NCBI RefSeq assembly: GCF_002737755.1
Contig: NZ_PEGH01000010.1
Span: 62,001-126,000 of the forward strand
Length of the DNA: 64,000 bases
Reading direction: 5' to 3'
DNA from: Caulobacter sp. BP25
GTDB taxonomy: Bacteria > Pseudomonadota > Alphaproteobacteria > Caulobacterales > Caulobacteraceae
Shown here: piece by piece, positions 43,091 through 47,488 of the stretch
Layout: every line of letters begins with the position of its first letter
How positions within the stretch are numbered: position 1 is the stretch's first letter
The notes under the pieces: model-generated
What the model saw: only the letters and a program-made list of their open reading frames with translations
What the model was told of the DNA's origin: nothing
The model's database searches: none
Made by a program: the position numbers and the translations under genes

Positions 43091-43548
43091 TGACCAAGCC
43101 GATCGCGGAGAACCGGCGCGCCCGGTACGACTACTTCATCGAGGAGACCTTCGAGGCCGGCATCATGCTGACCGGCACCGAGGTGAAGTCGCTGCGCGTC
43201 GGTCGGGCCAACATCGCTGAATCGTACGCCTCGGTCGAAGGGCGTGAGATCAAGCTGATCAACGCCGATATTCCGCCCTACGGCCACGCCAACCGCTTTA
43301 ACCACGAGCCGCGCCGCCACCGGAAGCTGCTGCTGCATCGCAAGCAGATCGACAAGCTGATCGGCGCGGTCCAGCGTGACGGCCGGACGATGATCCCGCT
43401 GAAGCTCTATTGGAACGAGAAAGGTCTGGCCAAGCTTGAGATCGGCCTGGCCAAGGGCAAGAAGCTGCACGACAAGCGCGAGACCGAAGCTAACCGCGAC
43501 TGGCAGCGCGACAAGGCGCGCCTGATGAAGGGCGACCGCGGCGACTAA
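43090..43548 (+). CDS. smpB: SsrA-binding protein
   Basis: The 152-residue protein starts [19 protein letters not shown] and has [20 protein letters not shown], the tmRNA-binding core, with the basic C-terminal tail [17 protein letters not shown] that enters the ribosome decoding site. It is translationally coupled to dapA. The tmRNA gene itself was not found in this window. Confidence 0.96.
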
Positions 43549-43584
43549 GAGAGGTCGTCCGCGATCGTCGTGGCTTTGTCTTGT

Positions 43585-43701
43585 TCAGCCCAGGCCGAAT
43601 ATCATCAAGAAGCCCAGCGCCATGCCGAGGCAAAATCCGGCGACACTGGCGATGAGATACCGGCGGACGTCCGCGCGGACGTCGGTACGCGTCTGGGCCA
43701 T
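43585..43701 (-). CDS. 38-residue single-pass membrane protein
   Basis: The frame reads MAQTRTDVRADVRRYLIASV then AGFCLGMALGFLMIFGLG before TGA. The first 15 residues are charged (Arg/Asp) and the rest form one hydrophobic helix with a GxxxG-like LGMALGF, so a bitopic inner-membrane micropeptide is likely. A perfect FNR/FixK box lies 68-81 bp before the ATG on the same strand. No family was recognised. Oxygen-regulated small subunits of terminal oxidases are one possibility, but no oxidase genes are adjacent. Confidence 0.55.
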   Translation of the reverse strand: MAQTRTDVRADVRRYLIASVAGFCLGMALGFLMIFGLG

Positions 43702-43768
43702 CTGTAGTCCCGCTCCCACACGCCTCTTGGGCGTGACGAATCAATCCACGATTCAGTTTTAGCGTGAC

Positions 43769-43782
43769 TTGATCCTGATCAA
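43769..43782 (-). promoter_or_regulatory. FNR/FixK-type box
   Basis: TTGATCCTGATCAA matches the FNR/FixK consensus TTGAT-N4-ATCAA exactly. The only gene start nearby in a suitable direction is the 38-aa membrane protein at 43701 on the minus strand; the nearest plus-strand gene begins 2.9 kb away. The 5' leader between the box and the gene contains ACGCC-TCTTG-GGCGT, a short hairpin. Caulobacter uses FixK to induce genes under low oxygen. Confidence 0.7.
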
Positions 43783-43936
43783 CGGGGGTCAATACGCGGG
43801 CGCGACGATTGTTCGCAGCATAAACCCCCGGGGAGGTCGCCAATCGAGTCCGTTTCGGGAGTCTTGTGCTTGGCGGAAGTCCAAGATTGCCAACGCTGTC
43901 AAATGATCATCCAGCGTCGATTACTTCGATGATGGA

Positions 43937-44932
43937 TTAGCCATTCTCCAACGCCAAAAGGGCAAAGGTCGCCAACCAGTGTTCGCCCATGTAGTCGCCG
44001 GAAACATGCGGGATCGCGGCGGCCAAATGGTTCACCGCAGCGCTGATCGCATGGGGTTTAGCCGGGTCGGCTTCAGACATCGCGCTGGCCAGCGTGCGCC
44101 AACACCAGGCTCTGGACAGGTTCAAGCCGTCGAGGTGGGCGATTTTACCGTCAGTGCGGTCGCTGACCCGCGCGGGCGTGAACAGTGTGGCCGGCTGCTT
44201 GCGCGCCAGGTCGGGCAGGAAGCGCGGGAACCATAGCTCGAAGCGCTCGGGCGGCAGCAGCCGGCGCATGGCCTCTGCTTCGATCAGGGCCGGGGACAGG
44301 AAGTCGTCGCCCGACGGCTCCCAGGCCTGGCAGGCGGCGTCCTCGCCGTACCAAACGAGGGCGCGGTTGCGCATGAGCTCGTAGAGCGCCTGGTCGCCCG
44401 TCATCTCGGCGTACTCGTAGGCCAGCACCAGAGCGAAGGCGGTGTTGTAGTGGGTCCCGGCTCGGACCGGATAGTCGGCGATCGGCAGGAAGGCCTCGAA
44501 GCGGGCTTTGAACGCTAGGGCGAGGGGGGCGTGGGCGCCGGCCCAGGGGCGGCTGTGGCGCAGCAGCTCGGCCTGCAGCATCAGGCTCCACGCCCAGCCG
44601 TAAGGACGTTCGAAGCCCCGGCTTTCGGGGCGCGCCAGATAAGCCACCTCGCCGGCGACCTTCTCCGTGGTGAAAGCGTCGTCAAACAGGGCGACGATGG
44701 TGTCGGCCTCGGGCATCTCGGGACGCAGGCGCAGCAAGGTGGCCAGCAGCCAGTAGCCATGCACGCACGAGTGCCAGTCGAAGCTGCCGAAGAAGATCGG
44801 ATGCAGTTCGCGCGGCGAGCGGACGTCTTCCGGCCCGCCCATGACGTGGTCCAGCTTGTTGGGGTACTCGCGGGTCAGGTGCCCCAGCGCGATCCTGGCG
44901 AAGCGCGAGGCCGTGGCGCGGGCCAGACTCAT
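43937..44932 (-). CDS. DUF2891 family protein
   Basis: The 331-residue soluble protein reads HPIFFGSFDWHSCVHGYWLL and FERPYGWAWSLMLQAELLRHS, with RAGTHYNTAFALVLAYEYAE and LSRAWCWRTLA later. These His/Trp-rich helices are typical of DUF2891, probably an (alpha/alpha) toroid. No signal peptide is visible. It follows the DUF979 gene by 12 bp on the same strand, so it belongs to the DUF969-DUF979-DUF2891 unit. Function unknown. Confidence 0.85.
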   Translation of the reverse strand: MSLARATASRFARIALGHLTREYPNKLDHVMGGPEDVRSPRELHPIFFGSFDWHSCVHGYWLLATLLRLRPEMPEADTIVALFDDAFTTEKVAGEVAYLARPESRGFERPYGWAWSLMLQAELLRHSRPWAGAHAPLALAFKARFEAFLPIADYPVRAGTHYNTAFALVLAYEYAEMTGDQALYELMRNRALVWYGEDAACQAWEPSGDDFLSPALIEAEAMRRLLPPERFELWFPRFLPDLARKQPATLFTPARVSDRTDGKIAHLDGLNLSRAWCWRTLASAMSEADPAKPHAISAAVNHLAAAIPHVSGDYMGEHWLATFALLALENG

Positions 44933-46714: not shown

Positions 46715-47488
46715 ATGGCCGACGGCTCACTGCCGATTACATCCCTGAAGGGCAAGGTCAGCGACGCCGAGTGGCAGGCGCGCGTGGACCTGGCGGCCCT
46801 TTACCGCCTGGTCGCCCTGCACGGCTGGGACGACATGATCTTCACCCACATCTCGGCCCGCATCCCGGGGCCCGAGCATCACTTCCTGATCAATCCCTAC
46901 GGCATGTTCTTCGGCGAGATGACCGCCTCGTGCCTGGTCAAGGTGGATCTGGACGGCAACATCGTCGACAAGACGCCGTACTTCATCAATCCGGCGGGCT
47001 TCACGATCCACTCGGCCGTTCACGGCGCGCGCGACGACGCCCAGTACGTCATGCACCTGCACTCAGACCAGGGCGTGGCGGTCTCGGCCCAGCGCGATGG
47101 CCTGCTGCCGTTGACACAACATGCGCTGATCGTCTTGCCTCAACTCGCCTATCACGACTATGAAGGTGTTGCGCTCAACTTGGGAGAGCGAGAGCGGATC
47201 GTGTCCGATCTCGGCGACAAGAAGCTGCTGATGCTGCGCAACCACGGCACGCTGTCGGTGGGCGCAACGGCCGCTGAGTGCTGGTTGGGGATGTTCTTTC
47301 TGGAGCGGGCGTGCGCGCAGCAGGTCATGGCCTTGTCGACCGGACGAGACAACGTCCTTCTGGCGCCGGAATCGGCTCAGGAGGAGGTGCGTCGCCAGAC
47401 CGGCATGGGCATGGGGATGATCGGCGGCCTGGCCTGGCCCGGCTGCCTCAGAAGGCTGGACCGCGAGCTGCCCGGTTACGCGGAGTAG
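46715..47488 (+). CDS. Class II aldolase/adducin family protein
   Basis: The 257-residue protein starts after GGGAGG. The fold blocks are LYRLVALHGWDDMIFTHIS, FLINPYGMFFGEM, the metal site in YVMHLHSDQGVAVS (His-x-His) and MLRNHGTLSVG (third His), as in L-fuculose-phosphate aldolase-like proteins. The branch resembles bacterial adducin-type proteins with no assigned substrate. A GC-rich hairpin follows the stop. Confidence 0.9.
   Translation: MADGSLPITSLKGKVSDAEWQARVDLAALYRLVALHGWDDMIFTHISARIPGPEHHFLINPYGMFFGEMTASCLVKVDLDGNIVDKTPYFINPAGFTIHSAVHGARDDAQYVMHLHSDQGVAVSAQRDGLLPLTQHALIVLPQLAYHDYEGVALNLGERERIVSDLGDKKLLMLRNHGTLSVGATAAECWLGMFFLERACAQQVMALSTGRDNVLLAPESAQEEVRRQTGMGMGMIGGLAWPGCLRRLDRELPGYAE

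Follow-up and report, generated by a model that had tools for sequence, protein, structure and literature searches.

The window analysed here, a 64-kb stretch of a 4.29-Mb genome (labelled G000), carries on its minus strand, in this order, a gene with a DUF2891 domain (44932-43937; Pfam E 2e-135), an intergenic stretch containing a palindrome of the FixK/FNR type (43769-43782), and an ATG-initiated frame of 38 codons and a stop (43585-43701, with the ATG at 43701 and the stop ending at 43585), which converges on smpB, a plus-strand gene ending at 43548. The 38-residue translation of the frame is MAQTRTDVRADVRRYLIASVAGFCLGMALGFLMIFGLG. The palindrome reads TTGATCCTGATCAA on the plus strand and TTGATCAGGATCAA on the minus strand, and the exact fit to FNR/FixK claimed in the original prediction was borne out, with 10/10 positions agreeing with TTGAT-N4-ATCAA. 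According to the list of open reading frames, this box could serve the micropeptide gene only, since smpB terminates ahead of it and the plus strand has no further likely gene until one that starts at 46715. The ATG frame had also been said to contain the only start downstream of the box, which is not strictly so: an in-frame GTG would yield a 44-residue product, and another frame holds a GTG-initiated ORF of 38 residues. The ATG is the conserved start, with M1 present in 17/17 aligned rows and A2 and Q3 in at least 90% of them.

Upstream of the ATG, a Shine-Dalgarno-like region (GGGAGCGGGAC, 43707-43717, minus strand) can be read directly from the sequence, and between this region and the promoter block described below there is a leader hairpin (CACGCC/GGCGTG, 43719-43735, minus strand). 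As judged by reading the folds, a G+C-rich stem of differing bases occurs at the position of the hairpin in about 12 of the 17 leaders, while none is found in G003, G008, G272, G264 and G265. No Rfam family reached its gathering score in the region 43400-44000, where a match to SNORD107 at E 0.19 was taken as chance, and with nothing at cut-off the possibility of an RNA gene was rejected. In several relatives, a protein of 61-65 residues, resembling DUF2188 below the cut-off, is encoded between the DUF2891 gene and the peptide gene (L056 1208-1393, L060 1183-1380, L058 1088-1282, L049 479-673). No such protein was seen at the window locus; there, the gap contains the FixK box.

A search with a profile built from seven members, with membership set at E<=1e-10, detected the gene in 17 of 390 family genomes, all of them belonging to one genus (17 of its 75 genomes). 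Weak matches, which extend to 319/390 genomes at E<=1 and many of which, among those listed, are short stretches inside frames of about 470 residues, were left out, as were the diverged smpB neighbours in G279 and G296. A short membrane-type ORF following smpB was additionally sought by script in 28 of 30 smpB loci, the other two having no usable stop. smpB itself was found in 71 of the 75 genus genomes. Convergence of the peptide gene on smpB was observed in 17/17, with 12 to 444 bp separating the match ends of the pair. Three named matches to the peptide were retrieved, two from Caulobacter and one from an uncultured Caulobacterales bacterium, and on this basis the genus was assigned to Caulobacter.

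Selection on the frame was assessed in seven ORF pairs, of which one (G008 and G272) is identical and the other six differ, with dN/dS values ranging from 0.07 to 0.20. Between G000 and G003, 14 substitutions have led to three amino-acid changes against 9.3 expected (dN/dS 0.067), a number as low as this being reached in 0/5000 randomisations. Significant values were also obtained for G003-G271 (dN/dS 0.160, P 0.0020), G000-G271 (11 differing sites, dN/dS 0.178, P 0.0086) and G031-G030 (dN/dS 0.069, P 0.016), and the pairs G001-G281 (0.177) and G295-G293 (0.197), with three changes each, were not significant. The frame is a genuine protein-coding gene under purifying selection, limited to part of the genus. 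A chance open frame might be suspected from the shortness of the ORF and from the lack of a match to any curated family, and is hardly credible for a frame, start codon and position that are kept in 17 genomes with dN/dS far below 1. These same observations confirm the micropeptide gene as first called; a lack of codon conservation in relatives had been named as grounds for abandoning it, and conservation is what the dN/dS comparison revealed.

The predicted peptide agrees with the earlier description of a charged N-terminus followed by one hydrophobic helix, as arginines precede the hydrophobic part and AlphaFold returned a single helix spanning residues 3-36 (mean pLDDT 85, from a 4-row alignment). 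By the positive-inside rule, the N-terminus would be oriented toward the cytoplasm. An alignment of 17 rows, comprising 16 distinct members (G272 being equal to G008) and the diverged G279, showed M1, F23, G26, G30 and F31 to be invariant and A2, Q3, R9, R13, L16 and S19 almost invariant. Every row has either Gly or Ala at residue 22, which together with G26 and G30 creates a small-xxxG-xxxG face. Such a pattern suggests that the helix packs against that of a membrane partner, and the best reading of the product is a glycine-zipper micropeptide of the inner membrane.

Searches of curated collections were negative: in Pfam, four members and the relative G279 gave no match at cut-off and only sub-cut-off matches to DUF2613 and PetM, NCBIfam gave none for four members, PHROGs none for two, and the peptide had no match in PADLOC or in plasmid records. 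PDB sequences returned only PetM at E 0.32, taken as chance, and PDB folds returned no match, in a comparison that is uninformative for one helix. No publication on the peptide appeared among the papers listed by the literature searches. The micropeptide is a real gene that is missing from the curated libraries searched, and it adds a well-supported family to a model genus with known roles for tiny membrane peptides.

Among such peptides, single-helix membrane proteins of 29 and 71 residues have been described in Caulobacter as damage-induced division inhibitors (PMC4211646). By description, these proteins (SidA and DidA) offer a functional analogy, being tiny single-helix membrane peptides placed under a stress regulator, and they differ from the present peptide in the regulator concerned and in their induction upon DNA damage. 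This precedent and the small-xxxG-xxxG face could speak for a small membrane-active regulator or toxin-like peptide, acting on division in the manner of SidA/DidA or as a type I toxin. Such a role is improbable, since the candidate promoter is of a housekeeping type, unlike that of a tightly repressed toxin, and a type I toxin is further disfavoured by the absence of any Rfam RNA family at cut-off in 43400-44000, Rfam having been the only search for an antitoxin RNA.

Within the window, the box is the only match to TTGATNNNNATCAA with at most one mismatch. With 0.28 such matches expected in 64 kb and 24 of 100 shuffled sequences reaching one, it is unremarkable when the window alone is considered. 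At the scale of the genome, TTGAYNNNNRTCAA occurs 16 times, compared to a single occurrence of the reversed control, and 15 of these 16 boxes were read as loci. One is next to a gene of the Crp family, taken for fixK, and to a receiver-type gene named fixT by reading only, with no Pfam match. Another separates cydA (Pfam Cyt_bd_oxida_I) from an ABC gene taken for cydD or cydC, and two others precede a COX2 gene of cta type and a COX2/COX_ARM gene of cyo type (Pfam). Three are close to TonB-receptor genes, and the rest are situated beside other genes or inside frames. In addition, a 9/10 box precedes ccoN in the cco operon (Pfam COX1, FixO, FixQ, FixP). Among the FixK targets reported for Caulobacterales are the cco, cyd and cta operons as well as fixK itself (PMC4999443). 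FixK-type boxes are real in this genome, and searches of eight relatives yielded 5-20 such boxes each, against 1-2 for the controls. The three perfect boxes of the window's own genome in L031, L041 and L045 (1501-1514 in each) were noted near genes for TonB-dependent receptors (Plug domain), and the box in L042 lies inside a gene of this type. The box in L043 (1501-1514) separates a Sir2-like frame from a 375-residue frame, for which the name nrdB was considered and set aside, given only a sub-cut-off match to AurF in Pfam.

The occurrence of boxes at several oxidase genes, along with the size and single helix of the peptide, could favour a role as stabiliser of a terminal oxidase, as suggested earlier, or as a small subunit of one (CydX or CcoQ type). 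The peptide does resemble CydX, CydY and CydZ, the small subunits of cytochrome bd, in having about 40 residues and one hydrophobic helix, and its gene shares the presence of a FixK-type box with the cyd operon of this genome. It differs from CydX in lacking the conserved tryptophan and in lying outside the cyd operon, and the genome possesses its own CydX-family gene (Pfam YbgT_YccB, 39 residues, E 1e-14), which follows cydB at L109 11062-11181. As the peptide contains no tryptophan, the CydX motif YxxWxxGx15E/D (PMC4325964) is absent, and a missed cydX was rejected on these grounds together with the position beside smpB rather than cydB. CcoQ/FixQ of the cbb3 oxidase is likewise a small single-helix protein, encoded in an operon with the 9/10 box. 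A missed ccoQ was also rejected, with a separate FixQ gene located between fixO and fixP in the cco operon (L114 3646-3813, E 3e-19) and no FixQ match to the peptide up to E 1 in a Pfam scan of four members. The peptide gene adjoins smpB and not an oxidase gene in all 17 genomes, and an oxidase role has very little probability.

The regulatory meaning of the box depends on its placement with respect to a candidate housekeeping promoter. The RpoD consensus in Caulobacter has been described as a -10 element GCTANAWC and a -35 element TTGACGS or TTGNCNS lying 10-19 bp before it (PMC8144410). On the minus strand, five bases after the box, the sequence GCTAAAAC (43756-43763) is a full match to this -10 (10/10), a score reached by 3 of the 127,986 positions scored when the two strands of the window are taken together. 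The left half of the box, TTGATCA, doubles as a candidate -35, giving TTGATCA-N12-GCTAAAAC as a candidate promoter; counted by eye, this -35 keeps TTGA and agrees with TTGACGS at 4/7 positions, and the TTGNCNS form fails. In 64 kb, TTG-N14-18-GCTANAWC occurs once, at this site (0.17 expected from a Markov model, with at most 2 in any of 60 simulations), TTGA-N13-17-GCTANAWC once against 0.00 expected, and the looser TTG-N14-18-SCTANAWY once against 0.53 expected, which is not unusual, these patterns all having been written after the site was seen. When 15 of the 16 genomic boxes were considered in 30 orientations, a full -10 at RpoD spacing was encountered at this box only, the next best scoring 7/10. 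The -10 scores 8/10 in G003, 7/10 in G271 and 8/10 in G288. The box likely overlaps a predicted RpoD promoter, and as 93% of mapped RpoD motifs begin at -34 to -37 (PMC4287350), transcription is predicted to start at 43745-43748, with the centre of the box at -27.5 to -30.5.

Most activating Fnr boxes in Sphingopyxis are centred near -41.5, with some located far upstream, at -60.5 or -93.5 (PMC7713065), and pioABC of Rhodopseudomonas is most likely activated through a FixK box at -44.5 (PMC3050613). One Fnr box in Sphingopyxis is centred at -29.5 and has been suggested to repress (PMC7713065). This promoter, that of SGRAN_1582, is similar to the one described here in that the box covers the -35 region, and it differs in that the protein is Fnr rather than FixK and the target is a regulator gene (PMC7713065). 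With the box lying over the candidate -35 and spacer, and its predicted centre at -27.5 to -30.5 rather than at -41.5, the simplest prediction from the geometry is repression. The induction of the gene by FixK that was originally envisaged is not supported by this placement, which is usually wrong for activation and plausible for repression. A perfect FNR box should not by default be taken for an on-switch, and its placement in the promoter has to be considered first.

The leading explanation, put forward tentatively from the sequence, is that of a micropeptide of aerobic growth whose expression in this species FixK lowers when oxygen is scarce. RpoD would transcribe the gene from the candidate promoter, with a start near 43745-43748, and the peptide would enter the membrane as a single helix, its arginine-rich end remaining on the cytoplasmic side, and the small-xxxG-xxxG face may pack against a membrane partner or against another copy of the peptide. 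FixK made at low oxygen would then bind over the -35 and spacer and block RNA polymerase, the site over the -35 existing in this species and, in a less perfect version, in G003. The expected outcome would be a peptide made in air and lowered in hypoxia, and at this locus it could be tested cleanly whether FixK is a direct repressor when bound at a -35 site.

Activation of the gene by FixK at low oxygen would require a class II promoter with a start near 43734, from which the box centre is 41.5 bp distant and which would give a leader of about 33 nt. Such an arrangement could account for a perfect box with one possible target. At class II distance the best -10 here scores 6/10, while the better promoter match overlaps the box, and the box is not conserved among orthologues. 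Weak elements of this kind are common: at 11 of the other FixK boxes of this genome, the -10 at class II distance scores between 4 and 8 of 10. This leaves a low probability for activation by FixK through a second start near 43734.

The original prediction had named conservation of the box among Caulobacter as a check, and the box proved poorly conserved: within 400 bp upstream of the orthologous genes, a box of at least 8/10 was found in only 2 of 17 promoters, those of G000 (10/10) and G003 (9/10). In G003 the left half, which doubles as the candidate -35, has been kept and the right half is partly lost, and G271 and G288 show a degenerate box in the promoter alignment. G003 does not stand out as the nearest relative of G000; the ORF of G271 is closer to that of G000 than is that of G003 (11 versus 14 differing sites), yet its promoter has no such box. 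On this comparison, the box is a recent or drifting feature. The columns of the box vary while the downstream block CACGYTAARACTGAATCRKGGAYTGATTCGTCACGCC is kept in G000, G003, G271 and G288, and this block holds both of two GANTC (CcrM methylation) sites on the minus strand, GAATC at 43750-43754 and GATTC at 43738-43742, each kept in the same four genomes. Conserved promoter GANTC has been taken to indicate CcrM control (PMC3973325), and the window has three pairs of GANTC sites within 20 bp, of which this intergenic region holds two. The sites amount here to a lead only, as one falls before the predicted start, within about 10 bp of it, and the other follows it closely.

The palindrome may have arisen by chance, considering that 15 of the 17 orthologous promoters have no box of at least 8/10 and that it is degenerate in G271 and G288. 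Its TTGATC would then be a housekeeping -35 and expression would be independent of oxygen, perhaps timed by the two GANTC sites. This alternative is favoured by the retention of the -35 half in G003 at the expense of the right half, by the missing box in G271 despite its closer ORF, by the better conservation of the block holding the -10 and the two GANTC sites, and by the use of conserved promoter GANTC as a sign of CcrM control (PMC3973325). It is countered by the rarity of full palindromes (16 versus 1 control genome-wide) and by the 9/10 score that persists in G003, a score shared with the ccoN box of this genome, and the proposed timing is weakened by neither GANTC lying between -35 and -10. 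A fortuitous box is somewhat unlikely, and in the order of probability FixK repression comes first, followed by an inert box and then by FixK activation. It is a long shot that three inputs would meet at this promoter, namely RpoD, a FixK off-switch on the -35 (to which a second start activated by FixK might be added) and CcrM/GcrA acting at the two conserved GANTC sites; if so, the peptide would link cell-cycle stage and oxygen at the membrane. Of the original claim of a 38-residue membrane micropeptide behind an FNR/FixK box, the gene and the box proved genuine, and the low-oxygen on-switch and the oxidase role were not supported; the gene and FixK-type box are real and the box was over-read.

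Two further observations concern the intergenic region. Four GANTC sites are grouped there into two close pairs (43738-43754 and 43846-43863), compared to a density of 1.2 per kb in the window, and the pair at 43846-43863 is not kept in G003, G271 and G288, whereas the 43738/43750 pair is kept. Lastly, in about 9 of 10 aligned relatives without a box, a TTTACAATCGTTGACAAT-like element precedes the ATG by about 90-100 bp, for example at approximately 1401-1418 in L048.
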